From: Limnobacter sp. SAORIC-580
Lineage (GTDB): Bacteria; Pseudomonadota; Gammaproteobacteria; Burkholderiales; Burkholderiaceae_B
Assembly (NCBI RefSeq): GCF_013004065.1
Contig: NZ_CP053084.1
Coordinates: forward strand, 868,001 to 932,000
Length of the DNA stretch: 64,000 bases
Reading direction: 5' to 3'
The number at the start of each line of letters is the position of its first letter. The first letter of the stretch is position 1. A program made the position numbers and the translations under genes. The notes under the pieces are model-generated. The model did no database searches. It saw only the letters and a program-made list of their open reading frames with translations, and was not told the DNA's origin. Shown one piece after another: positions 26,059 to 48,744 of the stretch.

Positions 26059-26074
26059 AGCAAGGATCAATCCA
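26059..26074 (-). promoter_or_regulatory. Weak sigma-54 -24/-12 candidate before the 24-26 kb quinoprotein
   Basis: Read on the minus strand it is TGGATT-N5-TTGCT: TGG and GC have the right spacing (10 bases between GG and GC) but the -24 element is only half matched. Its place, 37 bases before the start codon, is suitable. Confidence 0.35.
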
Positions 26075-26105
26075 CTGCTGTTGTTGCAAAGTGGCGCACC
26101 GGAGT

Positions 26106-26120
26106 TGTCACAAAAGTGTC
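26106..26120. promoter_or_regulatory. Copy of the TGTCACAAAACTGTC motif
   Basis: TGTCACAAAAGTGTC differs by one base from the 15-base motif found before the XoxF-type dehydrogenase (34046) and the porin (44282). Proposed activator site. Confidence 0.45.
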
Positions 26121-26180
26121 ATCCAATGCGCAGCTGCTTGCGTGTATATTTCGCGTACCCGATTCTATTGGTAAATGATC

Positions 26181-26336
26181 ATGAAGCAACAACTTGAGCT
26201 GTTGAAAGAAATTGAACACAAGCTCGAAGAATTGAGCAAAGACAAGGACCTGAAAGAAAAGCGCCCGCTGGAAGTCAAAGAGATCAAAGGTTTGCGCTTG
26301 GTGGTGTCGTCGATTATTCGCCGCATGGCCAGCTAA
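26181..26336 (+). CDS. Short coiled-coil protein, 51 residues
   Basis: ATG to TAA frame of 51 codons with a regular heptad-like pattern of leucine, isoleucine, lysine and glutamate (MKQQLELLKEIEHKLEEL), followed by a hydrophobic/basic end (GLRLVVSSIIRRMAS). The amino-acid pattern looks selected, not random. No convincing ribosome site is visible. No family recognised. It lies alone between the divergent quinoprotein gene and the convergent MFS gene, 16 bases from the latter's stop. Confidence 0.45.
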   Translation: MKQQLELLKEIEHKLEELSKDKDLKEKRPLEVKEIKGLRLVVSSIIRRMAS

Positions 26337-26352
26337 GCCACGATTAAGCCGT

Positions 26353-27573
26353 TTACTGATAGACCTTCAGACGCTTTGCAATCAACAGTGCGGTCAAGTT
26401 AAACGAGATCGCGATCACGCTGCATATCCAGAAGTTTTCGATCAGACCCTCTGCATTGCGCGAGATCACCATGCCACCCACCAAGGCGGCAAGGCCCATG
26501 GCAGCAGATTGCATGGACGAGTTCAGGGTCATGAATGTGCCCCTGTTTTTCGGATTGCCTGCTGCGCTGACCAAAGCCATGCCTGGAATCATTCTTCCGC
26601 TGACAAACACAAAGAAGAACGTGGTGATCACCAGAATGACTGTCATGCTCAGGCCCGCAGTCACAGTAATCAATGCCATGGGCAACACTGCAACACCGGC
26701 GATGATTTGCAGCATTTTCAATTTGCCAATTCGATCGCTGAGCTTGCCGATGATTTGCGCACTGAACAAGGTCGCCGCGCCGCCAGCCAGATAAATGACC
26801 GGAATGTCCGAAGGCGTCAGCCCTGCATTGATTTGCATGTAAATCGTGATGTACGGAATGATTGAAAACCCGGCGAAGATCATGCAAAACGAAAACAGGA
26901 ACGCACGCAGGTGATTCGAATCGCGAAGCACCTGTGCAATGCCCTGAAGTGGGCCGGTTTCGCCCCGCGCATGCAAATGGCCTTGCAGTGTCGGAATGAC
27001 GTACCAGCCGGCCACCGCCAATACAAAGCTGATGCCGGCAATTCCGAAGAAGGGGGTGTGCCAGTCCGAATTGGCGGCCACGTAAAGACCCAGAGGCACA
27101 CCCATCACCGTAGACACGGAGAATGAGGTCATGATGACACCCATGGCTTTGCCCCTGCGCGCGAAGGGCACCACATCGGCCACAATGGTTTGAATCATCG
27201 CCGATAAAATTCCGCCAAAAAGCCCGGCAGCGATTCTGGCGCTCATCAGCGTTTCATAGGTGGGCGCAAGGCCGCAGGCCAAAGTGGCCACGGTAAACAA
27301 CACATACAAAATCAACAACAATCGGCGCCGTTCAAACCGGTCAATGTACAAGGAGGCCAACAAACCCGAGGCACCGGCCGCGAAAGTGTAGGCGGACACC
27401 AGCAGGCCGAACTTCGCATCGGAAATTGCAAAAGCCTGCGTGAGCTGTGGCCCCAGCGGCATCATGATCATGAAGTCGAGAATGTGGGTGAATTGTATGC
27501 CAGCAAGAATCAGCAGCAACGCCCACTCGCGCTGGGGCGTCATTGTCACTTGGCATGCGGTGGGGCTGTTCAT
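26353..27573 (-). CDS. Major facilitator superfamily transporter
   Basis: 406 residues with about 12 transmembrane helices in two halves. The loop between helices 2 and 3 has the family pattern (SLYIDRFERRRLLL), repeated in weaker form in the second half (GKLSDRIGKLKML). It resembles AraJ-type drug or sugar efflux permeases, but the substrate cannot be inferred. It probably stands alone, 55 bases after the start of the AEC transporter gene on the same strand. Confidence 0.85.
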   Translation of the reverse strand: MNSPTACQVTMTPQREWALLLILAGIQFTHILDFMIMMPLGPQLTQAFAISDAKFGLLVSAYTFAAGASGLLASLYIDRFERRRLLLILYVLFTVATLACGLAPTYETLMSARIAAGLFGGILSAMIQTIVADVVPFARRGKAMGVIMTSFSVSTVMGVPLGLYVAANSDWHTPFFGIAGISFVLAVAGWYVIPTLQGHLHARGETGPLQGIAQVLRDSNHLRAFLFSFCMIFAGFSIIPYITIYMQINAGLTPSDIPVIYLAGGAATLFSAQIIGKLSDRIGKLKMLQIIAGVAVLPMALITVTAGLSMTVILVITTFFFVFVSGRMIPGMALVSAAGNPKNRGTFMTLNSSMQSAAMGLAALVGGMVISRNAEGLIENFWICSVIAISFNLTALLIAKRLKVYQ

Positions 27574-27628
27574 GTACTGCTACCTGTGGATGGTTTTTTG
27601 CTTTTGACCTTGAGTTTAACCCGCTACC

Positions 27629-28573: not shown

Positions 28574-28623
28574 GTTGACAGGTGTCGTTTGAAGTGATGC
28601 GTATTATTTCATTACTGAACTTT

Positions 28624-29226: not shown

Positions 29227-30747
29227 TTAGAAAAAGCCTAAGGAGGTGGGGTTGTAGCTCACCAGCAGGTTTTTGGTTTGCTGGTAGTGGTGCAACATCA
29301 TTTTGTGGTTTTCGCGGCCAATGCCCGATTGCTTGTAGCCACCAAAGGCGGCATGTGCCGGGTAGAGATGGTAACAATTGGTCCACACGCGGCCAGCCTG
29401 AATGGCACGGCCCATTCGGAAAGCGCGCGCGCCATCCCGACTCCACACCCCTGCGCCCAAACCGTACAGTGTGTCGTTGGCAATTTGCAGGGCTTCGGCT
29501 TCGTCTTTAAAGGTAGTCACCGACAACACGGGGCCGAAAATTTCTTCCTGAAAAATACGCATTTTGTTGTGCCCCTGGAACACGGTTGGCTTCACATAGT
29601 AGCCGCCAGCCAAGTCGCCGCTTTGTTTGTTCTGCTCGCCACCAATGAGGCACTTGGCGCCTTCTTGTTTGCCCAGATCGATGTAACTCAGGATTTTCTC
29701 CAGTTGCTCTGAGGAAGCTTGAGCGCCGATCATGGTGCTTTCATCGAGCGGGTTGCCTTGTTTGATTTTGCCTACCCGTTCAATGGCGCGTTCGATGAAG
29801 GCATCGTAAATATCCTCCTGAATCAGTGCGCGTGACGGGCATGTGCACACTTCGCCTTGGTTCAATGCAAACATGGCAAAACCTTCGAGGGTTTTGTCAA
29901 AGAATGCATCGTCTGCGTCCATGATGTCAGAGAAGAAAATATTGGGTGATTTTCCGCCCAATTCCAGCGTGACTGGAATCAGGTTTTGTGCGGCGTATTG
30001 CATGATCAGTCGGCCTGTGGATGTTTCACCGGTGAATGCAATTTTTGAAATACGCGGATTGCTCGCCAGTGGTTTGCCAGCTTCCAGTCCAAACCCATTC
30101 ACGATGTTCAGCACGCCGGGCGGCAGCAAGTCAGCAATCAAATCCATCACCACCAGCAACGATGCTGGTGTTTGTTCTGCAGGCTTTAACACCACACAAT
30201 TGCCGGCAGCCAATGCAGGTGCCAACTTCCAGGCTGCCATGAGAATTGGAAAATTCCAGGGGATGATTTGCCCCACAACACCCAGTGGTTCATTGAAGTG
30301 ATAAGCGTAGGTTTGGTGGTCTATCTCGCAAATGCTGCCTTCTTCGCCGCGAATACAGGCTGCGAAATAACGGAAATGATCGATCGCAAGGGGAATGTCC
30401 GCAGCCATGGTCTCCCGCAGCGGTTTGCCGTTGTCCAGTGTTTCAGCCACGGCGATCAGGCGCAGGTTTTCTTCCATGCGGTCGGCAATGCGGTTCAGAA
30501 TCATGGAGCGTTCTGTGGGTGAGCGTTTGCCCCAAGCGTCTTTCGCTGCATGCGCAGCATCCAGCGCCAGTTCAATGTCTTCAGCTTGAGAGCGAGCAAC
30601 CTTGCAAAGCACTTGGCCTGTGACTGGGGTTAAGTTGTCAAAGTATTGTCCGTTCTTGGGCGCGGCCCATTTGCCGCCGATGAAGTTGTCGTACTTTGCT
30701 TTGAATGGAAAGGCCACGCCCAGTTTTAATTCGTCAACCATATTCAT
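29227..30747 (-). CDS. NAD-dependent aldehyde dehydrogenase (ExaC/AcoD type)
   Basis: Oxidises short-chain aldehydes such as acetaldehyde to acids in the cytoplasm with NAD. The 506 residues show [21 protein letters not shown] and KPAEQTP for cofactor binding, the general-base glutamate in [10 protein letters not shown], and the catalytic cysteine in [13 protein letters not shown]. It resembles ExaC and AcoD, which accompany PQQ ethanol oxidation. I use the ATG at 30747, with AGGAG 8 bases upstream. A sigma-54 promoter at 30792 and DUF779 downstream support a role in the alcohol regulon. Confidence 0.9.
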
Positions 30748-30791: not shown

Positions 30792-30806
30792 GCAATGGGC
30801 ATGCCA
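30792..30806 (-). promoter_or_regulatory. Sigma-54 -24/-12 promoter before the aldehyde dehydrogenase
   Basis: On the minus strand: TGGCAT-GCCCA-TTGC, an exact fit to the TGGCAY-N5-TTGC consensus. It is 44 bases before the start codon, leaving about 33 bases of leader. Confidence 0.8.
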
Positions 30807-30922: not shown

Positions 30923-30944
30923 ATTATGCAATTATTTGCATAAT
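30923..30944. promoter_or_regulatory. Perfect palindrome upstream of the aldehyde dehydrogenase promoter
   Basis: ATTATGCAA and TTGCATAAT face each other across four bases. It lies about 115 bases upstream of the -24 element, a normal distance for an enhancer-binding protein, but its sequence differs from the two motif types seen at the other sigma-54 promoters. Confidence 0.5.
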
Positions 30945-32071: not shown

Positions 32072-32087
32072 AGGCATGTCGATTGCT
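32072..32087 (+). promoter_or_regulatory. Sigma-54 -24/-12 candidate before the SoxYZ-like gene
   Basis: AGGCAT-GTCGA-TTGCT has the required GG/GC spacing and matches all but the first consensus base. It lies 41 bases before the start and inside the 66-base divergent gap. Confidence 0.65.
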
Positions 32088-32127: not shown

Positions 32128-32979
32128 ATGATGTTCAGCGTTACAAAACAATCGATTAATAAAATGACCCCGCTAGGGGTTTTCTTGAGCGGTTTCTTGC
32201 TGGTGAGCAATTTCTTCGCCAGCCCGGTTCTTGCAGCACCCGCCGAACTTGGCGCAGTCAAAGGCGATTTGACTGGCGGAGACCCGCTGGGTTCCATGCA
32301 GTGGCCTGACATGAAAGGCCAGTTCTTCGATGCCGATGCAAAAACCGTGTTTGATTCTCGCATCAAGGTCACGGTGCCCTTGTTCGCCGAAGATGCCATG
32401 AATGTGCCCGTGTCATTCGATGCTTCCGCACTCGGTAAGGTGAAAAAAATCGTGGTGCTGGTGGACAGAAACCCGATTCGAAAGGTGCTGGAGTTCATTC
32501 CCGAGAAAGCCAAGCCTGCCCTGAATTTTCGTTTCAAGTTGGAGCAAGCCAGCCCCATTCGCGTTGCAGCCCTGACTGAAAATGGTGTGTGGCATGTGGG
32601 CTATGCCTTTATTGAAGCGTCTGGCGGGGGTTGCACCGTGCCTGGCGCAACACGGGCCGATGGCAGCTGGCCACAAACCTTGAACAAGGTGGCTGGCAAA
32701 ATGTTTGATGCCAACCAGTTGCGGGATGACGCACGCCTGCGCGTGCAGGTGTCGCACCCCATGGACACGGGGTTGGTGGCCGGCGTGCCCGCCTTTTACA
32801 TTGAAGAAATGATTTTGCAAGACAAGAACAAACAAGTACTGGCCAAGCTTTACCCCTTTGAGCCTGTGTCGGAGAACCCTTTGTTTTCGTTTGATTTTGA
32901 CAAGAAACCGGTGGGCCCAATCAGCCTGGTAGGGCGCGACAACAACGGCAACCGAATTGATGCAAAGGTTACCCAATGA
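32128..32979 (+). CDS. Quinoprotein-associated SoxYZ-like carrier protein
   Basis: 283-residue exported protein; a long signal sequence is cut near VLAAPA. It joins a SoxY-like and a SoxZ-like half in one chain. The first half carries the equivalent of the SoxY swinging-arm motif as EASGGGCTVPG, with a single cysteine around residue 171. The second half runs VSHPMDTGL to the C-terminus. Proteins of this kind occur with PQQ dehydrogenases and metallo-hydrolase-like partners and may relay sulfur or redox groups; the actual reaction is unknown. It overlaps the next gene by 4 bases. Confidence 0.82.
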   Translation: MMFSVTKQSINKMTPLGVFLSGFLLVSNFFASPVLAAPAELGAVKGDLTGGDPLGSMQWPDMKGQFFDADAKTVFDSRIKVTVPLFAEDAMNVPVSFDASALGKVKKIVVLVDRNPIRKVLEFIPEKAKPALNFRFKLEQASPIRVAALTENGVWHVGYAFIEASGGGCTVPGATRADGSWPQTLNKVAGKMFDANQLRDDARLRVQVSHPMDTGLVAGVPAFYIEEMILQDKNKQVLAKLYPFEPVSENPLFSFDFDKKPVGPISLVGRDNNGNRIDAKVTQ

Positions 32980-33962
32980 ATCTGTTTAAAGCTGTGCGCG
33001 CGATATTTGCCGCATCCACGTTCATTGTTCTTGTTGCCCCTACGCTGGCTGAGCTGCCCAATGTTGCCAAACCAACACCTGACAAAGCTACCCTTGATTA
33101 CGGTTTGAAAGCCACCAAACTGGCGGGTGGCTGGTATGTGATTGCGGGTGCGAACGATGACTTTTCTCAGGCCAATGGCTGCAACATCATCAACACCGGT
33201 TTTTACATGGACGACTCGGGGGTGTACGTCATCAACACCGGAACCTCGCGTATTTATGGCGAGCAACAGCGGACCTTGATCAACTCGGTCAGCAAGAACA
33301 AACCAGTGAAGCAGGTGGTGGCACTGAACCTTCACCCGGATTATTTTTTGGGCAATCAGGCTTACCCGAAAGAGGCGCTTGCCGCCACGAAGTTGACCAT
33401 GCAAGGCATCAAAGCCGAAGCGGCTTTGTATGAAACCAACTTGTACCGTTTGTGTGGCGACTGGATGAAGGGCACTGAAAGCGTATTTCCCGTGCAAACC
33501 ATACTGCCGGGCAACTTCAATAAACTGGGCGATAAGACAATTCAAACCCTTGAATTGAAAGGTCACACCGATTCGGACCTGGTGTTATTTGACCCGGAAA
33601 GCAAAGTGATGTGGGCCGGTGGCCTGGTGTTTTACAAGCGTATTGTGACCACCCCGCATGCCCAGCTGAAACCGTGGATAGAAAGCCTGAAAACACTGCA
33701 AGCCATGAAGCCCAAGGTGGTGGTGCCCAGCCACGGCCCCTTGAGTTGGGGAACTGAGGCCATTGACCAAACCCTGGATTACTTGAGTTGGCTGGACAAA
33801 CGACTGACCGACGCGGCCAATATGGGCGAGGAAATGAATGATGTGATGAAGAAAGGTGCCCCCGAGCGATTCCGAAACTTTGCAGGCTACCCGGCTGAGT
33901 TTTACCGCAATGTGACCAATTTGTACCCTTTGTATGAAAAGCAGGCTTTGGGCGGTTTTTGA
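32976..33962 (+). CDS. Quinoprotein-associated metallo-beta-lactamase-fold protein, degenerate metal site
   Basis: 328-residue exported protein (signal cut near TLAEL). The fold is recognisable from the LNLHPDYFLGNQ, LKGHTDSDLVLFDPESKVMWAGG and VVVPSHGPLSWG segments. The canonical HxHxDH becomes NLHPDY, so two of the histidine positions are changed, and the usual GD before the metal-bridging aspartate is GG. The later histidines (GHT, SHG) remain. It resembles the SoxH-related proteins found in PQQ relay clusters. It forms a pair with the SoxYZ-like gene (ATGA overlap) and has a paralogue at 61631. Confidence 0.8.
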   Translation: MNLFKAVRAIFAASTFIVLVAPTLAELPNVAKPTPDKATLDYGLKATKLAGGWYVIAGANDDFSQANGCNIINTGFYMDDSGVYVINTGTSRIYGEQQRTLINSVSKNKPVKQVVALNLHPDYFLGNQAYPKEALAATKLTMQGIKAEAALYETNLYRLCGDWMKGTESVFPVQTILPGNFNKLGDKTIQTLELKGHTDSDLVLFDPESKVMWAGGLVFYKRIVTTPHAQLKPWIESLKTLQAMKPKVVVPSHGPLSWGTEAIDQTLDYLSWLDKRLTDAANMGEEMNDVMKKGAPERFRNFAGYPAEFYRNVTNLYPLYEKQALGGF

Positions 33963-34045
33963 GCGGAGAGCATAAGGGTTAACGCTGTACCAAGTGTGTC
34001 AAAAAGGGACAGTTTGTGTGTTGCTGAACAGGTGAGCTGTTGCAA

Positions 34046-34060
34046 TGTCACAAAACTGTC
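34046..34060. promoter_or_regulatory. TGTCACAAAACTGTC motif before the XoxF-type gene
   Basis: Identical over 15 bases to the motif before the porin (44282-44296, opposite orientation). TGTCA occurs twice with a period of about one helical turn. It lies some 105 bases upstream of the -24 element, as an activator site should. A related GACAGTTTGTG is at 34008-34018. The 300-base gap 33963-34262 holds these motifs, the sigma-54 promoter and a short leader, and nothing else that I can see. Confidence 0.6.
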
Positions 34061-34163
34061 TCTTTTTTTGCTTATCGCGATCAATGAAATCACTCTAATG
34101 AGGGTGTTTTTGTAACACACTGATTTTATTGAATAAAAAATTTATTTAGATGAAATATTCTAC

Positions 34164-34180
34164 TTGGCATGAAGCTTGCG
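34164..34180 (+). promoter_or_regulatory. Sigma-54 -24/-12 promoter before the XoxF-type dehydrogenase
   Basis: TTGGCAT-GAAGC-TTGCG fits the sigma-54 consensus. Start of transcription would be near 34190, giving a leader of about 70 bases that contains a GCCCC/GGGGC hairpin (34198-34221). A good ribosome site (GAGAGGAG) precedes the ATG at 34263. Confidence 0.85.
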
Positions 34181-34262: not shown

Positions 34263-36008
34263 ATGCGCAAAACTCTGCTTAGCGCGATGGTAGCAACCGC
34301 ACTGGCGATTCCCGCAGTGGCTTCGGCCAATGTGACAGACGCAATGATTCAAAACGATGCCAAATCCACAGGCGACGTATTGTCCTGGGGTATTGGTACA
34401 GAGGGTCAGCGTTACAGCCCATTGAAAGACATCAACGTATCGAACGTGGGCAAGCTGGTTCCAGCGTGGTCATTCTCGTTCGGTGGTGAAAAGCAGCGTG
34501 GCCAGGAAAGCCAGCCGCTGATTCACAACGGCAAGATGTTTGTCACCGGTTCCTATTCACGCATTTACGCACTGGATGCTTCGACAGGTGAAAAGCTGTG
34601 GAAATATGAGCACCGCCTGCCAGAAGGCATTATGCCTTGCTGCGACGTGGTGAACCGCGGTGCCGCCCTGTATGACAACCTGGTGATTTTCTCGACACTG
34701 GATGCCCAGTTGATCGCCCTGGACCAGAACACCGGCAAGGTGGTGTGGAAAGACAAGATTGACGACTATGCAGCGGGTTACTCCAACACTGCTGCACCCA
34801 TCATCGCCAATGGTTTGGTGCTGACAGGTGTATCGGGTGGCGAATTCGGTGTAGTGGGTCGTGTTGAAGCACGCAATGCCAAGACTGGTGAAATGGTATG
34901 GCTGCGCCCAACCGTTGAAGGCCACATGGGTTATACATGGGACAAAGACGGCAACAAGAAGGAAGCTGGAATTTCCGGTACCACCAATGCCACCTGGAAA
35001 GGCGACATGTGGAAAACCGGCGGTGCAGCAACCTGGCTGGGTGGCTCCTATGACAGCAAAACAGGTTTGGCTTACTTCGGTACTGGTAACCCAGCGCCTT
35101 GGAACAGCCACCTGCGCCCTGGCGACAACTTGTATTCCACATCCACAGTGGCAGTTGATGTAAAAACCGGCCAGATCAAGTGGCACTACCAGTCCACACC
35201 GAACGACGGTTGGGACTATGACGGTGTGAACGAGTTCGTGACCTTTGACATGAATGGCAAGCGTGTTGGTGCGAAAGCTGACCGCAACGGCTTCATGTAC
35301 GTGAACGACGCCACCACCGGCAAGCTGGAAAATGCCTTCCCATTTGTGAAGAAAATCACATGGGCCAAGGGCATCGACATGAAGACAGGTCGCCCGATTT
35401 TCGACCCCGCCAACCGCCCTGGTGACCCCACCAAGATTGACGGCAAGAAAGGCGAAACAGTGTTCTCCGCCCCTTCATTCCTGGGTGGCAAGAACCAGCA
35501 GCCAATGGCCTACAGCCCTGACACAGGTCTGTTCTATGTTCCTGCCAACGAGTGGGGCATGGAAATCTGGAACGAGCCAATCACCTACAAGAAGGGTGCG
35601 GCTTACCTGGGCGCCGGTTTCACCATCAAGACTTTGCCTGGCTTTGACTACATCGGCGCACTGCGTGCGATGAACCCCAAGACCGGCAAGATCGAATGGG
35701 AAATCACCAACAACGCGCCTCTGTGGGGTGGTGTTCTGACGACCGGCGGTAACCTGGTGTTCTGGGGTACTCCAGAAGGTTTCCTGAAGGCGGCGGATGC
35801 CAAAACCGGTAAGGAAGTCTGGAAGTTCCAGACGGGTTCAGGCGTGGTTGCTCCTCCCGTAACCTGGAAAGGCAAAGACGGTCAGCAGTACGTGGCTGTT
35901 GTGTCTGGTTGGGGCGGTGCCGTTCCCCTGTGGGGCGGTGATGTAGCCAGCAAGGTGAACTACCTTGAACAAGGTGGTTCCGTGTGGGTATTCAAGCTGA
36001 TGAAGTAA
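34263..36008 (+). CDS. PQQ-dependent alcohol dehydrogenase with lanthanide-type metal site
   Basis: Periplasmic methanol/ethanol-type quinoprotein, 581 residues, signal peptide cut near ASAN. PQQ-contacting adjacent cysteines are at 126-127 (MPCCD). Metal and catalytic positions by alignment: E194 (SGGEFG), N276 (FGTGN), catalytic D318 and an additional D320 in WDYDG. The extra aspartate two residues after the catalytic one is the mark of lanthanide-using enzymes (XoxF, ExaF, PedH); calcium enzymes have a small residue there. Substrate (methanol versus ethanol or longer alcohols) cannot be decided. No cytochrome domain, so the PedF-like cytochrome c at 47109 is the likely electron acceptor. 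Confidence 0.9.
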
Positions 36009-40499: not shown

Positions 40500-40777
40500 G
40501 CGTCCAGCCAGTTTCGGCGTGTGGCTTCCTGCAGCATGCTGCGCACATCGGCTTCCAGTCCGCTTGCGTTGAACTTGGCTTCAAGCGCCGCAACAATGTC
40601 ATTCACCGTTCGGCTGCCATCGCACAACAGTAAAATTTCACTGGCCGATTGGTTCAGTTTCACCATGCCCTCGGGGTACAGCAGCACATGGGTTTTTTGC
40701 GCCTCTTCGTATTGCAGGCGAAACAAGCGGTTCAGTTTCGGGTGTTCCGGCAGGCTTGGAATGGTCTCGGTGTTCAT
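40496..40777 (-). CDS. pqqD: PQQ biosynthesis chaperone PqqD
   Basis: 93-residue chaperone that presents the PqqA peptide to PqqE. I use the ATG at 40777, which overlaps the pqqC stop in an ATGA junction; the frame is open 69 bases further inside pqqC. Characteristic segments: [26 protein letters not shown] core (here [18 protein letters not shown]), [16 protein letters not shown] and [10 protein letters not shown]. Confidence 0.93.
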
Positions 40778-41499
40778 TGTTTTTTCTGTTTTGTTTTGGC
40801 GGGTTTGTCGGGGTAAGACAGCGCAATCGCGTCTGACATGCTCCACAACACGTCCAGTTTAAATTGCAAAATTTCAAGCGCGCGTTCCTGCTGTGCGCGG
40901 GTCTTGAAATAATTCAGCGTTACTTCAAGGCCATGCTCCACATCACGTTGGGCCAGGCTGATTCGTGAGCGAAAGTAATTCAAACCTTCAGGTGCCACCC
41001 ACTTGTAGTCTTTGGGCCAGTTGCTCAAGCGCTGCTTGTGAATTTCCGGTGCAAACATTTCAGTCAGCGACGAGCACACCGCCTCTTGCCAGGGCGCGCG
41101 GCGTGCAAAATTCACATAAGCGTCTACGGCAAAGCGCACACCGGGCAGCACCAGCTGCTGGCCCCACAGCACTTCGCGGTCGATGCCCACGGCTTCGCCC
41201 AAGCGGCTCCAGGCTTCAATGCCGCCAGCATTGCCTTCCCAGCCATCGTGGTCAAGAATGCGTTGCACCCAACGGCGGCGGGTTTCTCGGTCGTCACAAT
41301 TGGCCATCACAGCCGCATCTTTCTGCGGAATGCACACCTGGTAATAAAAGCGGTTGGCCACCCAGCCGCGAAGTTGTTCACGGCTCAGTTTGCCTTCGCG
41401 CATGGCCACATTGAATGGGTGGTGAATGTGGTAGCGGTCGCCCTTGGCGCGCAAGCGTTCTTCGAACTCTTTTTTGCTCCAGGCTTTGTTGCTGCTCAT
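40774..41499 (-). CDS. pqqC: Pyrroloquinoline-quinone synthase PqqC
   Basis: Cofactor-less oxidase that performs the last ring closure and oxidation to PQQ. 241 residues, all-helical. Conserved stretches include [48 protein letters not shown] and the histidine in [12 protein letters not shown]. It overlaps pqqB and pqqD by 4 bases each. Confidence 0.95.
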
Positions 41500-42428
41500 G
41501 CAAGAATCTCCATGCCGTCGTAGGACACTTCAATTCTATTCTCGGCCAGAATGGCGCGCTCGTCGCCATGCTCGTACAAAATCGGGTTGGTGTTGTTGAT
41601 GTGAATCAGGATTTTGCGCTGGTTTTCAAACTGGCGCAGCTGGCTGATCATGCCTGAGCCCCGTTTGCCCGGCTTGTCAGTTTGAGGTAAATGACCCATG
41701 TCGGCAGCCAGTTTTTGCGAGAAACCTTGTGTGATCATTTCATCTTCGGTCCAGAAGGTGCCGTCCACCATCAACACATCGGCTTGTTGCATATAGGGCA
41801 GAATGTCGGGCGTAATTTCTCCAAGTCCAGGGGCGTAAAACACTTTTTTGCCAGTGTTGGTGTCTTCAATCAACAAACCGATGTTGTCGCCACGGCGTTG
41901 GGCGTAGCGGCTGGGGGAGTAGGGGGGGGCTTTGCTGATCAGCGGGATTGATTTGATCTTGATGCTGTCCAGCGGGCTGATTGAGAAAAATTCATCGCAT
42001 TCGGTACACAGTGGAGTCCACTTCACACCGCAATAAAACCCAAGCGTAGGCACCAAGGGTAAACCGTTGGTCAGGTCTTCCCACACAGCGGGGGTGGTGA
42101 ACAGGCGCATGGGTGTTTTCCCTTCGCGCATCATCAACAGGCCGGTGGTGTGGTCAATTTGCGCGTCCATCAAAATGACGGCAGAGATGCCCGTGTCGCG
42201 TGGGCCACGGTTGGGTTGCAGTTCAGGGGTACTTTTGATTTGAGTGAGTATATCGGGCGATGCATTCACCAATATCCAGTTCGCAGACCCGTCGGATATT
42301 GCGATCGACGACTGGGTGCGCGCGGTGTACCCGGGCGCTTTGGCCCGAACAGCCTGGCAGTTGGTGCAGTTGCAGTTCCACTGTGGGAACCCTCCGCCTG
42401 CTGCGGAACCCAGAACTTTGATTTTCAT
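41496..42428 (-). CDS. pqqB: PQQ biosynthesis protein PqqB
   Basis: Metallo-beta-lactamase-fold hydroxylase acting on the Glu-Tyr intermediate. 310 residues from the ATG at 42428, where the product starts [19 protein letters not shown] as in other PqqB proteins. The structural-zinc cysteines are in NCNCTNC, and the family's [16 protein letters not shown] segment is present. It is separated from pqqA by an intrinsic terminator-like hairpin and overlaps pqqC by 4 bases. Confidence 0.95.
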
Positions 42429-42447
42429 AGTTGCTTTTTTCAGGGGT

Positions 42448-42485
42448 AAAAAAAACCCCGCTAGCCTCAAAGGCTATCCGGGGCT
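42448..42485 (-). terminator. Partial terminator between pqqA and pqqB
   Basis: On the minus strand CCCCGGATAGCC pairs with GGCTAGCGGGG around TTTGA, followed by eight T residues. Because pqqB-E have no other obvious promoter, it probably works as an attenuator giving more PqqA peptide than enzymes. Confidence 0.85.
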
Positions 42486-42500
42486 GTGCGAACCGTCAAA

Positions 42501-42575
42501 TTAACGGTTGGCGATGTACATGGTGATTTCGAAACCGAAACGCATGTCAACGAATGATGGTGTAGTCCACTGCAT
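42501..42575 (-). CDS. pqqA: PQQ precursor peptide PqqA
   Basis: 24-residue peptide (MQWTTPSFVDMRFGFEITMY and four more residues) that supplies the glutamate and tyrosine from which PQQ is built; both are present with the required three-residue gap (E-I-T-M-Y). GGAGG lies 8 bases before the ATG. First gene of the pqq operon, under a sigma-54 promoter at 42674. Confidence 0.95.
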   Translation of the reverse strand: MQWTTPSFVDMRFGFEITMYIANR

Positions 42576-42673: not shown

Positions 42674-42688
42674 GCAATTCCTGTGCCT
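42674..42688 (-). promoter_or_regulatory. Sigma-54 -24/-12 promoter before pqqA
   Basis: On the minus strand: AGGCAC-AGGAA-TTGC, correct in spacing and in all but the first consensus base. About 87 bases of leader precede pqqA. Confidence 0.7.
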
Positions 42689-42760: not shown

Positions 42761-42777
42761 TGTTGCAGTTTGAAACA
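42761..42777. promoter_or_regulatory. TGTTTCA-N3-TGAAACA type site before pqqA
   Basis: TGTTGCA-GTT-TGAAACA; one base off the palindrome. It lies about 73 bases upstream of the -24 element. Same type of site at 46933 and 48632. Confidence 0.6.
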
Positions 42778-42846: not shown

Positions 42847-44034
42847 TCAGAAGAACAGGATTGCACCTACGGCGATGGTGTTGGACTCGCCTTTTGCTGC
42901 AGGAGCGCCCAACTGGTAGGTTTGTTCATTGGTGATGTACTCGCCAGCGATGGTCAGACTTGGAGTCAGGTTATGGTAAACGCCCAGAACCATCTGGTTT
43001 GTTTCTTCAAGCATGATGGCATTTGCGGCTCGATCACCGGCTGTGGAATCAAGTGTCGATGAGCCATAGTTAATACCAAACTTGGTGTTGCCAACTTTGT
43101 AGGTTGCTTGTACCAAGTATCCGTCTGAATCACGCTCAGCACCAGCGGCGTCACGACCACCAAAACCAATCAGTGTGGTTCCCAAGCCTTCGCCAGTGAA
43201 GTAGTTACCAGTCAGTGCCAGCGCACCGAGATTAACCGTGCCACCTACTTCGAAGCCGGTGAGGTCAGAGTCTGGAGCGGCAGCAACGCCGGACTGGGAT
43301 TGATTAATCAAGGCTGCCCACAATTTGCCTTTGTCGCCAAGGCTATAGGAGGCCAATGCTTGCATGCCTGGAGAATCATTCTCTTGGGCTGTGGCACCGT
43401 TGAGGTCCTTTGGCTGGAAAACACCGCCTGACAACGTCAGGTTACCGATTGCAGGTGCAGTGTAAGTGATCTGTGGCTGGAATTCAGTGTAAATATAACC
43501 CGATCCGATGCCGCCCAAGGTTGTATTCAATGCACCGTTGTACCCTGAACCACCGCCAACCGCCAACAGAGACATGTCGTTCAGAATCGCATTTTGACCA
43601 AATAGACCGATGTCGCGACCAGCCTTGATCGTACCCATTGATTCGTTTCCGAATTGCAAGAACACGCGACGCTGATCGCCCACGTTTTGACCCACGCCAC
43701 CAGCAGCTCCGTTGTTGTTAGTGGTACCCGGGTCAATGGAGATTACGGCTTTGAGGTCATATCCTGCTTGTTTGGTGGATGCTGTGAAAATGATGAAGCC
43801 AGGTAGCAAACCGTTTTGAATTGATGTCTGGTCTTGACCAGTTCCTGCACCACCGCAAAGACCCAATGCGCCACTGGCAACTGCACCGGCGTTGTCGCAA
43901 CTGGTTGTGTTGTAGTACGCGTTTACTGAACCTGAAAGGTCCATTTCCCATTCGCCAGCCTTGAAGCCGATTGCGTGTGCCGAAGTCCCCATTGCTGCCA
44001 AGATGGAAGCTGCTACTAATTTTTTGCTGATCAT
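42847..44034 (-). CDS. Gram-negative porin of the alcohol regulon
   Basis: 395-residue outer-membrane porin. Signal peptide cut at AHAIG, then the typical WEMDLSGSVNAYYN first strand, repeated alternating beta strands, QFGNESMGTIKAGRDIGLFG in the middle and the aromatic terminus GAILFF. Two cysteines (about residues 46 and 60) in an early loop could form a disulfide, which is uncommon in porins. A sigma-54 promoter and the TGTCACAAAACTGTC motif upstream tie it to the alcohol genes; it may admit alcohols or metal-chelate complexes. Confidence 0.85.
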   Translation of the reverse strand: MISKKLVAASILAAMGTSAHAIGFKAGEWEMDLSGSVNAYYNTTSCDNAGAVASGALGLCGGAGTGQDQTSIQNGLLPGFIIFTASTKQAGYDLKAVISIDPGTTNNNGAAGGVGQNVGDQRRVFLQFGNESMGTIKAGRDIGLFGQNAILNDMSLLAVGGGSGYNGALNTTLGGIGSGYIYTEFQPQITYTAPAIGNLTLSGGVFQPKDLNGATAQENDSPGMQALASYSLGDKGKLWAALINQSQSGVAAAPDSDLTGFEVGGTVNLGALALTGNYFTGEGLGTTLIGFGGRDAAGAERDSDGYLVQATYKVGNTKFGINYGSSTLDSTAGDRAANAIMLEETNQMVLGVYHNLTPSLTIAGEYITNEQTYQLGAPAAKGESNTIAVGAILFF

Positions 44035-44134: not shown

Positions 44135-44149
44135 GCAAAAGACATGCCA
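44135..44149 (-). promoter_or_regulatory. Sigma-54 -24/-12 promoter before the porin
   Basis: On the minus strand: TGGCAT-GTCTT-TTGC, an exact consensus fit. Leader of about 90 bases. The 349-base gap 44035-44383 holds this promoter, the upstream motif at 44282 and the terminator of the activator gene. Confidence 0.85.
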
Positions 44150-44281
44150 GTATTTAAGCTATTGATTTTATTGAATTAAATAAAAATGTAGGGCTTTTGA
44201 TGACAGGGTGAAGCAGTGCAGTTGCTTTGCGTCAGGCGGTACGCTTTGAAACAGAATTGTGTGCGGCTGGAGCAAGTGAAT

Positions 44282-44296
44282 GACAGTTTTGTGACA
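44282..44296. promoter_or_regulatory. TGTCACAAAACTGTC motif before the porin
   Basis: Reverse complement of the motif at 34046-34060, identical over 15 bases. About 133 bases upstream of the porin -24 element. Confidence 0.6.
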
Positions 44297-44317
44297 ACTG
44301 TTCAGTTGGTTTGTGCC

Positions 44318-44383: not shown

Positions 44384-46792
44384 TTACTTTGAATTCAAGC
44401 GCCGGTAAATTGTGTTTCTGGAAATACCCAGCATTCTTGCTGCTGCGCTGACATTGCCTCTACAGGTTTCCAGCGCATCTTGAATGGCACGTGATTCAAG
44501 GTCGTCCAAATTGATTGGATTTTCAACTTGAGCCCTTGCAGTGGCCTGTCGTGAACCCAGGTAACCTTGCGCCCTTGCATCATGGGCGCGGGTGTCGTAG
44601 CTGTCTTCTTTGAAGCGCGGTGGCTGCGGCAGTGTACCCATCTGATTTTCCCGGCTGGCGGGTTTTGTACTGTGCGTCCAGCTGTCGAACCGACCTTCCC
44701 TGAACTTGCTGAATGTTTGGTCCAGGCCATTGCCTTTGGGCGTGGCCCCTGGCCGCTGGTGAACCTGCACTTCAAATGGGCTTGGTTTGCTTCTTGCCGG
44801 GAACGCCGGCGCATTGCTGTGAACCTGTGCCGCGATTTTGTTTTGCACTGAAAAATTACTGCGCACGCTGAACTGTGGGCGTGTGTTTGCTGTTGGTGTT
44901 GTTGCACGCGGGTGTTGTTGACGCCCCTCTGTTTCAACAGGTTCTTGCTCCACTGGCCTGGTGGTGTTGTCCAGTCGCAATGCACGCCATTCGTCGAGGA
45001 AGTCATCGGGCAGATGGTCCCACTCAATCGTTTCTGCTTCATCCGTCATCACGCTGGCGGTGCGCAAAATATTGGTCAGTTGGCGAATATTGCCCGGCCA
45101 TGCGTGCGTGGTGAATGCTTTCATCACTTCGCCAGACACACGAATGCGCGGGTTGTGCGATTCATTTTCCAGAATGCGCTGAATGATTTTTTGTAGGTCA
45201 GTGCGCTCGCGCAAGGCGGGAAGACGAACGACCAAGCCATGAAGCCGGTAGTACAAGTCTTCGCGGAACTGTCCCGCGGCGATTTGATCGCGCAAGTTAC
45301 GGTGCGTGGCGCAAATCACTTGCAAGTTCACAGGAATGCTCTTCTGGCTGCCCAGTGGCGTCACCACCCTTTCTTGCAATACCCGCAGCAATCTTGCTTG
45401 CAGTGAAATTGGCATGTCACCGATTTCGTCAAGAAACAGGGTACCGCCGTTGGCTTGTAGAATTCGGCCTTGCGAACCCTTCTTTTTTGCGCCAGTGAAT
45501 GCACCGTCTTCGTATCCAAACAACTCGGATTCAATCAGCGTTTCTGGAATGGATGCGCAATTCACCGCAACAAAAGGCTTGTCGTGTCTTGGCGAATCGT
45601 TGTGTATGGCCTGCGCAAGAATCTCCTTGCCAGTGCCAGTTTCTCCCAGAATCAAAATGGGAATGTCCTTGTCAATCACCTTGCCCACTTTCTCGATGAT
45701 CTTGGCCACTTGCGGGTCGCCTGTGTTCAGGTATTTCAGGCTGGACAGGTGATGACTTTTTTGACAGGTGGTGTTTGCTTTTTGCGTGGCTGGTGCCTGG
45801 TTTTGTAGCACAGCCGCATCGGAATTGTTTTTCACCAAGCCCACAGAGTCAAAAATTCTGCCTCGGCCTACACTGCCCAAGCTGGCACGTGCGGTAACCT
45901 GGTTGCCATTGTGCAAACACAGAATGAGCGGAATGGGGTTACAGGTGCGGTAGTGGTCGATCAAGGCCGACAAAGGCATGCCAAAAAGAGAACTGAAGGT
46001 GTGGCTTTTCAGTGCATTGGCGGACATGCCAAATTGCACCATGGCTGCACGATTGGCAGCCAGAAACTTACCCGCTGGCGAGAAGGCTGCTGCGCCTTCC
46101 ACAACCGAACCCAGAAACTCGCCACGCTGGTGAAATTGAACAATAATTGCGTCTTGAAACGAGCTGTTGAACAAATGGTTTTCAATCATTTGCGCGGACA
46201 TACGCACCAGGCCCATGGTATGGCGGTGGTAGCTGCGATAGTCGCCCGTTACATCAAGCACGCCAATCGCCACACCGTTTGGGTCAAAGATGGGGGCGGC
46301 TGAACAGGTCAGAAAACGGTTCACATCCAGAAAGTGATCTTGCCCGTGAACAACAGTGGGCAATTCCTCAATCAGTGCGGTGCCAATGGCATTGGTGCCT
46401 TTGTGTTCCTCACTCCAGGTGACGCCGGGAGCCAAGGCTACTTTCTGGGCTTTCACCAAAAAATCATCGTCGCCCAGCGATTCAATAATGGTTCCGCTGG
46501 CATCGGTCAACAACACCATGCTGTGGGTGTTAACCACTTGCTCGTACAGGGTTTCCATGAAGGGCAAAGCGCACGATTTTAACCGGTTGTTTTTCTCGAT
46601 CAATTCTTTCAGTGAACTGCTGGGCGGTGGGGCCATGTCCACTTTGGAAGTAGTGTCCAAACCAGCAGCCGTTGAACGCTGATGCGCACGCCGAATGAAT
46701 TCGAGGTGTCCTTCCGTGCCCGGGTCGATCAATTCAATCACTTGGGCGTTGGATGCGAGGCTGCCGCCATCCCGCTCGGATAAGAATGCCAT
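44384..46792 (-). CDS. AcoR-like sigma-54-dependent activator with long linker
   Basis: 802-residue enhancer-binding protein, the probable regulator of this block. GAF-type sensor (about 90-210), a PAS-like stretch (about 235-300), AAA+ domain (about 355-600) with Walker A GETGTGKE (383-390), the sigma-54 contact loop GAFTGA (430-435) and DEIGDMP, and a Fis-type helix-turn-helix (760-802). The start at 46792 has AGGAG 7 bases upstream; the frame extends 120 bases beyond. AcoR relatives are about 650 residues; the excess is a low-complexity linker (about 605-758) rich in Gln, Pro, Arg and Ser between AAA+ and DNA-binding domains. Ligand probably an alcohol or aldehyde. Confidence 0.9.
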   Translation of the reverse strand: MAFLSERDGGSLASNAQVIELIDPGTEGHLEFIRRAHQRSTAAGLDTTSKVDMAPPPSSSLKELIEKNNRLKSCALPFMETLYEQVVNTHSMVLLTDASGTIIESLGDDDFLVKAQKVALAPGVTWSEEHKGTNAIGTALIEELPTVVHGQDHFLDVNRFLTCSAAPIFDPNGVAIGVLDVTGDYRSYHRHTMGLVRMSAQMIENHLFNSSFQDAIIVQFHQRGEFLGSVVEGAAAFSPAGKFLAANRAAMVQFGMSANALKSHTFSSLFGMPLSALIDHYRTCNPIPLILCLHNGNQVTARASLGSVGRGRIFDSVGLVKNNSDAAVLQNQAPATQKANTTCQKSHHLSSLKYLNTGDPQVAKIIEKVGKVIDKDIPILILGETGTGKEILAQAIHNDSPRHDKPFVAVNCASIPETLIESELFGYEDGAFTGAKKKGSQGRILQANGGTLFLDEIGDMPISLQARLLRVLQERVVTPLGSQKSIPVNLQVICATHRNLRDQIAAGQFREDLYYRLHGLVVRLPALRERTDLQKIIQRILENESHNPRIRVSGEVMKAFTTHAWPGNIRQLTNILRTASVMTDEAETIEWDHLPDDFLDEWRALRLDNTTRPVEQEPVETEGRQQHPRATTPTANTRPQFSVRSNFSVQNKIAAQVHSNAPAFPARSKPSPFEVQVHQRPGATPKGNGLDQTFSKFREGRFDSWTHSTKPASRENQMGTLPQPPRFKEDSYDTRAHDARAQGYLGSRQATARAQVENPINLDDLESRAIQDALETCRGNVSAAARMLGISRNTIYRRLNSK

Positions 46793-46930
46793 CCATGTCT
46801 CCTGCTTCTTGTGGTGCTGCGTTTTATAAGTATGGTTTTGGGTGCAACTTGAAGCGCTGAATGTTTTTGCTTGTATTGATATTTCAGCTGCTATGTTGCC
46901 CAATGCAAGCACTGTGCCAACTCAATCCAA

Positions 46931-46951
46931 TGTGTTTCAGAATGAAACACA
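46931..46951. promoter_or_regulatory. Palindromic activator site TGTTTCA-N3-TGAAACA
   Basis: Perfect inverted repeat with 9-base arms (TGTGTTTCA / TGAAACACA) around GAA. It lies about 97 bases upstream of the cytochrome -24 element and also upstream of the divergent activator gene, so it may serve both. The 316-base gap 46793-47108 also holds a TTGTCACAA half-motif at 47003-47011. Confidence 0.65.
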
Positions 46952-47047
46952 TTTTGATAAAAAGTAGCACAGATCAGGAAGCCGCACCATAGAGTTCGCG
47001 ATTTGTCACAATTGGTAAAACTAATTCACAAATCCAAATGAATAGGG

Positions 47048-47063
47048 TGGCATGGGGATTGCA
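47048..47063 (+). promoter_or_regulatory. Sigma-54 -24/-12 promoter before the cytochrome c gene
   Basis: TGGCAT-GGGGA-TTGCA, an exact consensus fit, 45 bases before the start codon. Confidence 0.88.
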
Positions 47064-47108
47064 GTAGCTACCCTGTGTTGAATCATTCTTAGAAATACAG
47101 GAGTTGTG

Positions 47109-47564
47109 ATGTTAGTTCGTAAAGCCCTTGTGGCAACCATTTTTTCAATTGCTGCTTCAGTGGCATTGGCTCACGGTGATGTAACCCCGCAGGTTGTGGA
47201 TGTGTCCACGCTCAAGCCATTGGGCGATGACATGCTGGAAACCAATCCGTATGTTGGTGACAAGGAAGCCATTCGTGTGGGCAGCTCAGCCTACAACCAG
47301 AACTGCGCCCGGTGCCATGGCCTTGAGGCGGTGAGTGGGGGAATTTCTCCAGACTTGCGCAAAATGAACACTGAGTGCGATTCTTTTGCGGGCAAGAAAG
47401 CCAAGGAGCAATGCAAGGTGGAAATTGACACCTACTACCGCAATTCGGTACTGGGCGGCAAAGTTCGTGGTGACCGCGTCTACATGCCTGCGTTTGCGGG
47501 TATTTTGAGTCAGGAAGCCATTTGGGCCATCAAGGCATATGTTGAAACTCGGAAGTACGAATAA
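47109..47564 (+). CDS. Cytochrome c-550 (PedF/ExaB-like)
   Basis: 151-residue periplasmic monoheme cytochrome; signal peptide cut after VALAHG. Single heme site CARCH (about residue 62) and distal methionine likely in RVYMPAFAGIL. Resembles the cytochrome c-550 that accepts electrons from PQQ ethanol dehydrogenases. I use the ATG at 47109, five bases after AGGAG, over the GTG at 47106. Two cysteines in NTECDSF and KEQCKVE could form a disulfide. It is first in a sigma-54-controlled pair with the binding protein gene. Confidence 0.88.
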   Translation: MLVRKALVATIFSIAASVALAHGDVTPQVVDVSTLKPLGDDMLETNPYVGDKEAIRVGSSAYNQNCARCHGLEAVSGGISPDLRKMNTECDSFAGKKAKEQCKVEIDTYYRNSVLGGKVRGDRVYMPAFAGILSQEAIWAIKAYVETRKYE

Positions 47565-47681
47565 CTCGACATATGGGCATGTGGGGCGGGTCCGTTGTTT
47601 GAAACAACAGGCCCCTCCTGTCTGTTTCAGTATCCATTCAAAATAAAAAGTGCATCCAAGGCACGGCTTTCAGGAGACCTT

Positions 47682-48557
47682 ATGAAGAATTCGTTCAATC
47701 CAATGTGTAAATTACCTTTGATCAAATGGTTTGGTGCTGTTGCGCTGGGCTTTTCCTTTCAGCTTGGCGCTGCCGCACAAGAGTTAAGTGACTGGGCCAA
47801 GGTGCAGGCCTCTGGCGTGTTGACTGTGGCGGTGTACAACTACTTGGCACCTTATTCACATGAAGGCAAAGGCATTGACGTGGACATTGCCAAAGCCTTG
47901 GCGGCCAAGCTGGGTTTGGGCTTGCGGGTGCGCGCTTTTACTGAGGATGAAGAGTTCTCCGACGACATTCGAAACATGGTGACGCGTGGCCATTACCTGG
48001 CAGGTGCGCCCGCCGATATTTTGATGCATGCACCCGTTGATGCTTACATTATGCAGAAGGAGGACCAGGCCCTGTTCTTTTCTCCTTACACCCGCGACGA
48101 TATTTTCGTGGCACGTAATATCAAGAAACTGCCAACATTGGACAGCCTGAAACCGTTCTCGGAAACAGGCAACAAAATTGGCGCTGAAGCAGCAGCCCTC
48201 CCCAGCATCATGTTGGCTGGCGCCGATGGTGCCGCGTATGCAAACAATCTGGTGAACTTCAAGACGCCCAAAGAAGCGGTTGATGCCATGGTGAATGGCG
48301 AACTGGTGGCAGTCATGGCCACGCGTGCCGAGTTGGAGTGGGCGCTGCACCAGCACCCAGATAAAAAAGCAGATTATTTTGTGGCCAAAGTGCCGCACAA
48401 TGCACTGCCACCCAAAGGTTGGGCTGTGGGCATGGCCACCAAGAAAAGCAACAAAGAGTTGGCTGAAAAACTGACAGTGGCCATGAATGAGTTGAAGGAA
48501 AGTGGTGAGCTGGAAAAGATTTTTTCCAATTATGGTGTGAAGTACATGAGACCTTGA
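47682..48557 (+). CDS. Quinoprotein-associated periplasmic substrate-binding-like protein (MxaJ/XoxJ type)
   Basis: 291 residues from the ATG at 47682 (AGGAG 7 bases before it); signal peptide cut near GAAAQE. A bacterial solute-binding fold of the amino-acid type (WAKVQASGVLTVAVYNYLAPYS, GIDVDIAKALAAKLGL, SNYGVKYMRP-like end). Members that go with PQQ dehydrogenases (XoxJ, MxaJ) may help load PQQ or metal, not import nutrients. No ABC permease for it is adjacent. Follows the cytochrome gene by 117 bases; a TTGTTTGAAACAA hairpin lies between. Confidence 0.82.
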   Translation: MKNSFNPMCKLPLIKWFGAVALGFSFQLGAAAQELSDWAKVQASGVLTVAVYNYLAPYSHEGKGIDVDIAKALAAKLGLGLRVRAFTEDEEFSDDIRNMVTRGHYLAGAPADILMHAPVDAYIMQKEDQALFFSPYTRDDIFVARNIKKLPTLDSLKPFSETGNKIGAEAAALPSIMLAGADGAAYANNLVNFKTPKEAVDAMVNGELVAVMATRAELEWALHQHPDKKADYFVAKVPHNALPPKGWAVGMATKKSNKELAEKLTVAMNELKESGELEKIFSNYGVKYMRP

Positions 48558-48591
48558 TTTGACCTGAATTCATTCTGGTTTATGTGTACTT

Positions 48592-48620
48592 AAAGCCCTG
48601 CGCAATCGCAGGGCTTTTTT
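48592..48620 (+). terminator. Rho-independent terminator after the cytochrome/binding-protein pair
   Basis: AAAGCCCTGCG pairs with CGCAGGGCTTT around CAAT, ending in a run of six T residues. Confidence 0.9.
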
Positions 48621-48631
48621 GTTGCAACAAG

Positions 48632-48648
48632 TGTTCCATTTTGAAACA
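48632..48648. promoter_or_regulatory. TGTTTCA-N3-TGAAACA type site before the aor operon
   Basis: TGTTCCA-TTT-TGAAACA, one base off the palindrome, about 81 bases upstream of the -24 element. Confidence 0.6.
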
Positions 48649-48728
48649 GCTGTGTTGCATCGGGAAAACCCCATGTGCAAAAACTCGGAAAAGTGTTGCC
48701 GAGAGCCGCTGAAATTTTCTTTTCAAGT

Positions 48729-48744
48729 TGGCAGGCTTATTGCA
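48729..48744 (+). promoter_or_regulatory. Sigma-54 -24/-12 promoter before the aor operon
   Basis: TGGCAG-GCTTA-TTGCA, consensus except one base in the -24 element. About 47 bases of leader before aorA. Confidence 0.85.

Follow-up and report, generated by a model that had tools for sequence, protein, structure and literature searches.

Gene content of the alcohol-oxidation cluster

This analysis concerns 64,000 nucleotides of Limnobacter sp. SAORIC-580 (NZ_CP053084.1, positions 868001-932000 of the 3,297,222-base single-contig genome). Positions below are those of this stretch, the window, unless a genome position is indicated. Genes of alcohol oxidation lie at ~24-53 kb of the window, and an initial annotation had proposed that their operons form one sigma-54 regulon. 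Genes were called with a crude codon-usage caller and named via NCBIfam and Pfam; pqqA, whose peptide was read directly, was added by hand for the promoter-region count.

This region contains two beta-propeller enzymes of the pyrroloquinoline quinone (PQQ) type. They are accompanied by the acetaldehyde dehydrogenase gene exaC followed by a DUF779 gene (29227..30747, minus strand; NF050026 above cut-off, PF05610), a regulator with a ModE-type helix-turn-helix (HTH) and a PBP-like domain (30985-32061, minus strand), and an operon for a quinoprotein-associated SoxYZ-like carrier and zinc metallohydrolase 1 (32128..33962, plus strand; TIGR04557 and TIGR04558 above cut-off). Further along lie a gene for a FadL-type protein (36284-37579), pqqA, pqqB, C, D and E with two ABC transporter genes (37704..42575, minus strand; NCBIfam), a porin gene (42847..44034, minus strand; PF13609), a GAF-AAA-Fis activator gene, pedF for cytochrome c-550 with a family 3 solute-binding protein gene (47106..48557, plus strand; TIGR04494 above cut-off, PF00497), and aorABC.

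The quinoprotein alcohol dehydrogenase at 34263..36008 (plus strand) had been labelled XoxF-type. Its best match in the Protein Data Bank (PDB) was instead 6zcv (800 bits), which we take to be PedH, followed by 1flg (664 bits), presumably ExaA; the XoxF structure 6dam reached only 394 bits. Identity as a XoxF lanthanide methanol dehydrogenase was thus rejected in favour of the PedH/ExaF type. An extra aspartate two residues after the catalytic aspartate marks lanthanide quinoproteins. This residue is found here as a DYD motif (GWDYDG) and in 6zcv (GWDFDG), where 1flg reads AWDFSG, and the enzyme is therefore predicted to use a lanthanide. In the second PQQ-type enzyme (24250..26022, minus strand), WGYD stands where the others have WDxD, and the usual catalytic aspartate appears to be replaced by glycine.

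The aorABC genes (48803..52537, plus strand) encode a tungsten aldehyde oxidoreductase (AOR) of the Aromatoleum three-subunit type, with AFOR_N, AFOR_C, ferredoxin and pyridine-nucleotide domains. AorB was matched best by PDB 8c0z (1029 bits), which we take to be AORAa of Aromatoleum aromaticum. As in that type, AorA, AorB and AorC are encoded in one operon with a MoaD-like gene, here a MoaD/ThiS-like small protein at the operon end (52504..52755, plus strand; PF02597). Use of tungsten by AorABC is probable from this likeness.

The activator gene (44384..46792, minus strand) lies between the porin gene and pedF. Its reading frame is open from 46912, with a likely ATG start at 46792 giving 802 amino acids, and the product carries a GAF domain, a sigma-54 AAA+ domain with the GAFTGA motif and a Fis-type HTH (HTH_8). 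Relatives are named 'regulator of acetoin/glycerol metabolism', and the label AcoR-like from the initial annotation was retained. We call the protein AcoR-like because no acetoin dehydrogenase was found among the annotated genes of the window; the rest of the genome was not searched for one. The genome encodes rpoN (TIGR02395, 453 bits, over cut-off).

Sigma-54 elements are enriched in the cluster

All seven -24/-12 elements named in the initial annotation were found in the sequence. Four match TGGCAYN5TTGC exactly: those of exaC (TGGCATGCCCATTGC, 30792..30806, minus strand), the PedH-type quinoprotein (TGGCATGAAGCTTGC, 34165..34179, plus strand), the porin (TGGCATGTCTTTTGC, 44135..44149, minus strand) and pedF (TGGCATGGGGATTGC, 47048..47062, plus strand). 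The other three carry one mismatch, with A for the first T before the soxYZ-like operon (AGGCATGTCGATTGC, 32072..32086, plus strand) and pqqA (AGGCACAGGAATTGC, 42674..42688, minus strand), and G for Y before aor (TGGCAGGCTTATTGC, 48729..48743, plus strand). The weak element proposed before the second quinoprotein was also present (TGGATTGATCCTTGC, 26060-26074, minus strand). An exact match absent from the earlier list lies upstream of the activator gene (TGGCACAGTGCTTGC, 46905-46919, minus strand; 18.9 bits).

Raw counting of consensus matches proved uninformative as evidence by itself: with one mismatch allowed there were 34 matches in the window against 26.3 expected, and 34 was reached in 7 of 100 shuffles. 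Exact matches numbered 45 in the whole genome (3.30 Mb), against 3 for a reversed-pattern control. Eleven of them stand between genes, with a gene starting 10-250 bp downstream, and five of these eleven fall within the 22.7 kb of the cluster (Poisson P 2e-8). An exact copy of the exaC element at genome position 3,199,380 lies outside the eleven.

Promoter regions were then scored with a sigma-54 matrix, whose weights were set from the consensus of Barrios et al. 1999. The background consisted of twenty 20-kb stretches spread round the same genome (400 kb). Scores of at least 12 were obtained for 8 of 16 promoter regions in the cluster and for 1 of 184 in the background (one-sided Fisher test, 2e-9), and for 1 of 19 in the rest of the window. 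The promoter region of the 26060 element scored 8.9 and is not among the eight. The initial annotation had staked its reading on the density of such sites elsewhere, and this comparison, made on the 400-kb sample rather than the whole genome, favours that reading.

A shared palindrome lies upstream of the sigma-54 elements

A 17-base palindrome, TGTTTCA-N3-TGAAACA, which had escaped the initial annotation, was found upstream of pedF, pqqA and aor. The copy between the activator gene and pedF (TGTTTCAGAATGAAACA, 46933..46949) is the sole exact occurrence in the genome and lies 107 bp from the pedF -24. The others are at 42761..42777 for pqqA (TGTTTCAAACTGCAACA in minus-strand reading; 81 bp from the -24) and at 48632..48648 for aor (TGTTCCATTTTGAAACA; 89 bp). 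A related palindrome stands 162 bp from the -24 of the PedH-type quinoprotein (TGTGTCAAAAAGGGACA, 33995..34011; 14.2 bits). We refer to these as putative upstream activating sequences (UAS).

With up to one mismatch, TGTTTCAN3TGAAACA occurs at five places in the genome, three in the cluster and two (genome positions 257781 and 418542) inside genes. The relaxed pattern TGTNNCAN3TGNNACA occurs at eight places in the 3.3-Mb genome (control 2). Four are in the window, before pqqA, pedF, aor and exbB, and a fifth leads to acs, the acetyl-CoA synthetase gene of the next pathway step; the remaining three (genome positions 457318, 1459950 and 1817566) fall within unrelated genes or at their starts. 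With up to two mismatches allowed, 28 places were found against 10 for the control, and these are mostly unexplained.

A UAS matrix was built from the cluster sites and their orthologues. Four cluster promoters have both a UAS and a -24/-12 element (spacings 81, 89, 107 and 162 bp); the 400-kb background contains no such pair. Matrices that left out one promoter at a time still ranked the pedF, pqqA and aor sites above every background site; for acs, 1-2 background sites scored as high, and for exbB 0-1. The palindrome is clear for pqqA, pedF, aor, acs and exbB. At the PedH-type gene and the second quinoprotein it is weaker, and no clear copy was found before exaC, the porin gene and soxYZ.

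At the second quinoprotein, the UAS-like sequence TGCGCCACTTTGCAACA (26082-26098) scored 10.2, and its counterparts in three relatives scored 14.0-16.1. The orthologue in genome G112 lies at another genomic place and is preceded by the same set of elements, which supports the weak site proposed by the initial annotation.

Both elements are conserved in the genus

Conservation was assessed in a genus set of 16 genomes, that of SAORIC-580 included; rows below 55% identity or 45% coverage were dropped. The activator was found in 13 of the 16 and AorB in 14. All 13 genomes with the activator carry both the UAS and the -24/-12 element before aor, pedF and pqqA, the aor element of G156 having been read by eye after the script chose another site. 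The aor element reads TGGCAGGNTTATTGCA in all 13 (TGGCAAACTTATTGCA in G159), and the pedF UAS scores at least 12.7 in each. For the PedH-type gene, both elements were present in 12 of 12 genomes with the gene (UAS 12.5-25.3 bits). The -24/-12 element was likewise kept before the porin gene (12/12 genomes compared; 14.5-17.7 bits), exaC (10/10; 16.1-18.4 bits) and soxYZ (11/12; 14.4-15.0 bits). The FadL gene showed no conserved sigma-54 element in this comparison.

Upstream of these operons, GG and GC lie 10 bp apart, and the elements are kept in up to 13 genomes of the genus while their flanks diverge. Spacings between UAS and promoter mostly repeat across the genus. Before the PedH-type gene the UAS is displaced yet present in three genomes, at 62 bp (G131), 48 bp (G034) and 82 bp (G159) instead of 162 bp, which suggests that selection, and not just shared descent, has kept it. 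The element upstream of the activator gene was intact in G066 and G147, broken in G112 and not seen in G131 and G034; autoregulation through this site is possible.

Neither the activator nor the PedH-type gene nor exaC has a match in one genome of the set, G090 (99% complete). G090 has kept aorABC, with an AorB 98% identical. Upstream of G090 aorA neither element was found (best sigma-54 score 7.1, best UAS score -4.2); inspection by eye showed TTGCAC-N17-TATACA, which resembles an ordinary sigma-70 promoter. Among the genes in 32 kb round G090 aor (loci L198 and L199) were MFS, auxin carrier and TRAP genes and aorABC, and no other genes of the module were found there. As a natural knock-out, G090 agrees with control of aor by the activator.

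In a further three genomes (G066, G156 and G157), the activator, the PedH-type gene and aor are present and no match to exaC was found. There aor may take over the job of exaC.

Activator relatives group with the same genes in other genera

Among 80 named loci, 18 were examined for element pairs and 26 for neighbours. Relatives of the activator group with exaC, pedF, pqq genes, the PedH-type gene, acs or aor (L001-L004). In Pseudoduganella (L001), acs directly follows the PedH-type gene. In Variovorax (L004), the activator is clustered with acs, exaC, pedF, pqqB-E and the PedH-type gene, and exaC, pedF, pqqA, the PedH-type gene and acs are preceded by -24/-12 elements of 12.7-15.6 bits. In L003, the activator adjoins a same-strand series of pedF, a solute-binding gene, aorA and aorB. 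Before exaC, 5 of 7 readable loci have a UAS-type palindrome (10.8-18.0) together with a -24/-12 element. Some distant activator relatives (L002, L008, L010 and L014) also have such palindromes alongside.

acs and exbB are candidate members outside the cluster

The acs gene at 2.28 Mb of the genome (named from its sequence) has the palindrome 195 bp ahead of it, with CTGGAACGCGAATTGCT between. Both acs elements are identical in G112 although the intervening sequence has diverged.

A second candidate is the ExbB/TolQ-type proton channel gene (62734..63384, plus strand; PF01618), downstream of a TonB receptor gene. It lies outside the cluster, yet carries both elements. The initial annotation had reported no such element before the iron genes it checked; this does not hold for exbB, where TGGAATGTAGCTTGC (62657-62671, plus strand) scores 14.1 bits. 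In 5 of 5 genomes compared (that of SAORIC-580 included), the promoter reads TGGAAY then GCTTGC at equal spacing, and the UAS between this element and exbB (TGTTGCAAACTGGGACA, 62688..62704) scores 19.5-25.8 bits. The comparison was made without the exbB-like gene of G034 (58% identity; threshold 60%).

The surrounding region (59000-63998, plus strand) encodes the TonB receptor, ExbB and a protein whose similarity to quinoprotein-relay metallohydrolases is weak (TIGR04558/4559; ~42 bits, well under cut-off). It is possibly an uptake system serving the quinoproteins rather than iron. Genes for a LuxR-type response regulator and a histidine kinase (57006-58893, minus strand) also adjoin the cluster, with a weak match (61 bits) to the ErdR family.

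Possible second inputs at the porin, quinoprotein and exaC promoters

The motif TGTCACAAAASTGTCA occurs at the promoters of the porin, the PedH-type quinoprotein and the second quinoprotein; these are its sole places in the genome at up to one mismatch, the pattern having been derived from the same three sites. It was considered as a variant activator site and rejected, as it forms a Pho-box-like direct repeat whose best match elsewhere precedes phoB. The Pho box consensus is the direct repeat CTGTCAY-N4-CTGTCAY. The two best matches to CTGTCAYNWNNCTGTCAY in the genome lie before phoB (named from sequence) and before the porin gene, where the repeat TTGTCACAAAACTGTCAT (44280..44297, minus strand) is kept with at most two mismatches in 10 of 12 genomes. 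Phosphate control of the porin is likely on this evidence. Weaker repeats, with two mismatches, stand at the promoters of the PedH-type gene (34045-34062, plus strand) and the second quinoprotein (26105-26122, plus strand); at this level chance hits abound (35 in all against 24 for the control).

Upstream of exaC, at the 3' end of the ModE-like gene, lies a perfect palindrome ATTATGCA-N6-TGCATAAT (30923-30944), its sole place in the genome at up to two mismatches. It was rejected as an activator site of exaC, since it tracks the ModE-like gene even without exaC (G066 and G156). With at most two mismatches it stands beside the ModE-like gene in 11 of the 12 genomes with that gene. The exception is G159, where it is also absent at the relocated exaC; the G157 stretch contains neither the palindrome nor the ModE-like gene. 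The palindrome may be the site of the ModE-like regulator, whose gene lies between exaC and soxYZ and which might connect the cluster with the supply of molybdate or tungstate.

A model for control by one sigma-54 activator

Taken together, these results make it highly probable, as judged from sequence, that the AcoR-like activator (gene at 44384-46792) governs the operons as one sigma-54 regulon. The sequence itself shows the elements, that they are enriched and conserved, and that both are missing before aor in G090. DNA binding by the activator, its signal and the direction of control are predictions. For pqqA, pedF, aor and the PedH-type gene, the one-regulon proposal of the initial annotation gains the support of the UAS. 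For exaC, the porin and soxYZ, which show no clear palindrome, membership is presumed from the -24/-12 elements and linkage and, for exaC, also from relatives: exaC is included because of its neighbourhood and palindromes in other genera and because an AcoR-type activator of ExaC is predicted in Ralstonia (PMC4676750). That the tungsten enzyme and the lanthanide-type quinoprotein share one regulator, a suggestion the initial annotation had marked as inference, is now backed by the shared palindrome, its conservation in the genus, G090 and the discovery of acs.

In the proposed mechanism, the GAF sensor domain would bind a signal from alcohol or aldehyde catabolism, and the activator would bind TGTNNCA-N3-TGNNACA palindromes, mostly ~80-160 bp upstream. 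Its GAFTGA loop would then contact sigma-54 polymerase at the -24/-12 element and open the promoter. The PedH-type quinoprotein, PQQ synthesis, cytochrome c-550, the tungsten AOR and acetyl-CoA synthetase would be turned on together, and the ExbB energiser would probably be switched on too. Less certain targets are exaC, soxYZ-soxH, the porin and the second quinoprotein.

A wider reading is offered tentatively, with a little less than an even chance of holding in all its parts. It sees an AcoR-family master switch of an alcohol-to-acetyl-CoA pathway built on two rare metals. Its targets would be the PedH-type lanthanide quinoprotein, PQQ synthesis, electron carriers, the tungsten AOR, acetyl-CoA synthetase and a TonB/ExbB energiser that may import lanthanide or PQQ; PhoB would provide a phosphate-starvation input at the porin and the two quinoproteins, and the ModE-like regulator may tune the use of ExaC versus the tungsten enzyme.

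Several observations weigh against control by a single activator. The UAS matrix was trained on this cluster's own sites and their orthologues, and the PedH-type UAS is weak, with 3-10 background sites as high when leave-one-out matrices are used. UAS of at least 12 bits precede exaC in 1 of 10 genomes, and the porin gene and soxYZ in none of 12 each; the soxYZ -24/-12 element was not found in G159, where the start is uncertain. Spacing is unusual at the second quinoprotein, whose UAS is 16 bp from the -24, and at exbB, whose UAS lies downstream of the -12. In other genera, the L004 palindrome is clear at pedF alone (17.3; acs 7.5, exaC 7.5, pqqA 5.2, PedH-type gene -1.5), the exaC palindrome is poor in L022 (-1.2), that of the G012 quinoprotein scores 4.6, and aorA of L003 is without either element. 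That G090 once had the elements and then lost them is presumed. Finally, 400 kb of G112 yielded five UAS/-24 pairs, and just two of them, at acs and at the second quinoprotein, have an explanation; an isolated pair that is not conserved therefore carries little weight.

One alternative is a model with more than one enhancer-binding protein, in which the cluster activator drives the palindrome operons (pqqA, pedF, aor, the PedH-type gene, acs and exbB), another drives exaC, the porin and soxYZ, and the ModE-like regulator perhaps also acts on exaC. We regard this as possible, at rather less than even probability. It is consistent with the weak or absent UAS before exaC, the porin gene and soxYZ, with the separate perfect palindrome upstream of exaC, and with 13 candidate activator relatives in a first look at the genome. 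Set against it, that palindrome goes with the ModE-like gene and not with exaC, while elsewhere an activator relative adjoins exaC and a palindrome of the UAS type precedes exaC in most readable loci.

Alternatively, the palindrome could be bound by a different regulator encoded elsewhere, with the cluster activator controlling only neighbour genes. Other activators of this class are expected to have a similar Fis-type HTH, but the sole perfect palindrome adjoins the activator gene, activator and aor UAS are jointly absent in G090, and such palindromes accompany some of the distant activator relatives; we consider this explanation improbable. Chance occurrence of the elements, in a genome whose base composition is balanced, can practically be dismissed: the one-mismatch count is near expectation, but half the promoter regions of the cluster score highly against 1 of 184 in the background, and the elements persist where flanks have diverged. 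Control by the single AcoR-like activator remains our preferred model.

Comparison with known systems

Work on lanthanide enzymes and on tungsten enzymes has usually run separately, the latter mostly in anaerobes. Here a betaproteobacterium has both rare-metal enzymes, seemingly within a single catabolic programme. Since the activator is named, its predicted site defined and its targets predicted, when such bacteria use rare-metal enzymes becomes addressable by one gene deletion, and G090 provides a natural comparison genome.

Sigma-54 control of single parts is already in print, as a prediction for ExaC and aor and also for exaA (PMC4676750, PMC6115532 and PMC6615313, in the portions available). 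In the open literature searched, as far as its passages were available, there was no description of one regulator for a tungsten AOR and a PQQ alcohol dehydrogenase. AORAa of A. aromaticum has three-subunit AorABC and MoaD-like genes, as here (PMC6365974); the main text of that paper mentions neither sigma nor promoter. In Clostridiales, aor is predicted to need sigma-54 and an enhancer-binding protein, AorR, as in Limnobacter. The predicted AorR target is aor-moaD (Clostridium and Geosporobacter), and the available passages give no link to PQQ enzymes (PMC6615313).

The ped cluster of Pseudomonas putida shares with Limnobacter a PedH-type enzyme, a PedF-type cytochrome and PQQ-linked periplasmic alcohol oxidation (PMC6115532, PMC12997753). 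Its control, as given in the passages available, is by two-component LuxR-type regulators (PedS2/PedR2 and AgmR), unlike the AcoR-like activator here. In those passages, one of the two papers leaves the sigma factor of pedE open, and the other lists the sigma-54-dependent CbrB, outside the cluster, as relevant. The exaA gene of Azospirillum brasilense depends on sigma-54 and a LuxR-type regulator (as cited in PMC6115532). There too a quinoprotein gene is under sigma-54, with a LuxR-type response regulator in place of the AcoR type.

The system with the same type of activator is that of Ralstonia solanacearum, where the AcoR-type activator of the Rsc3129/Rsc3128 pair is predicted to drive ExaC from a sigma-54 promoter and rpoN1 is needed to grow on ethanol (PMC4676750). 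In the portions of that paper available, the Ralstonia activator has one predicted target. In Limnobacter, the predicted targets are many operons, including those for PQQ synthesis, the PedH-type quinoprotein, the tungsten enzyme and acs.

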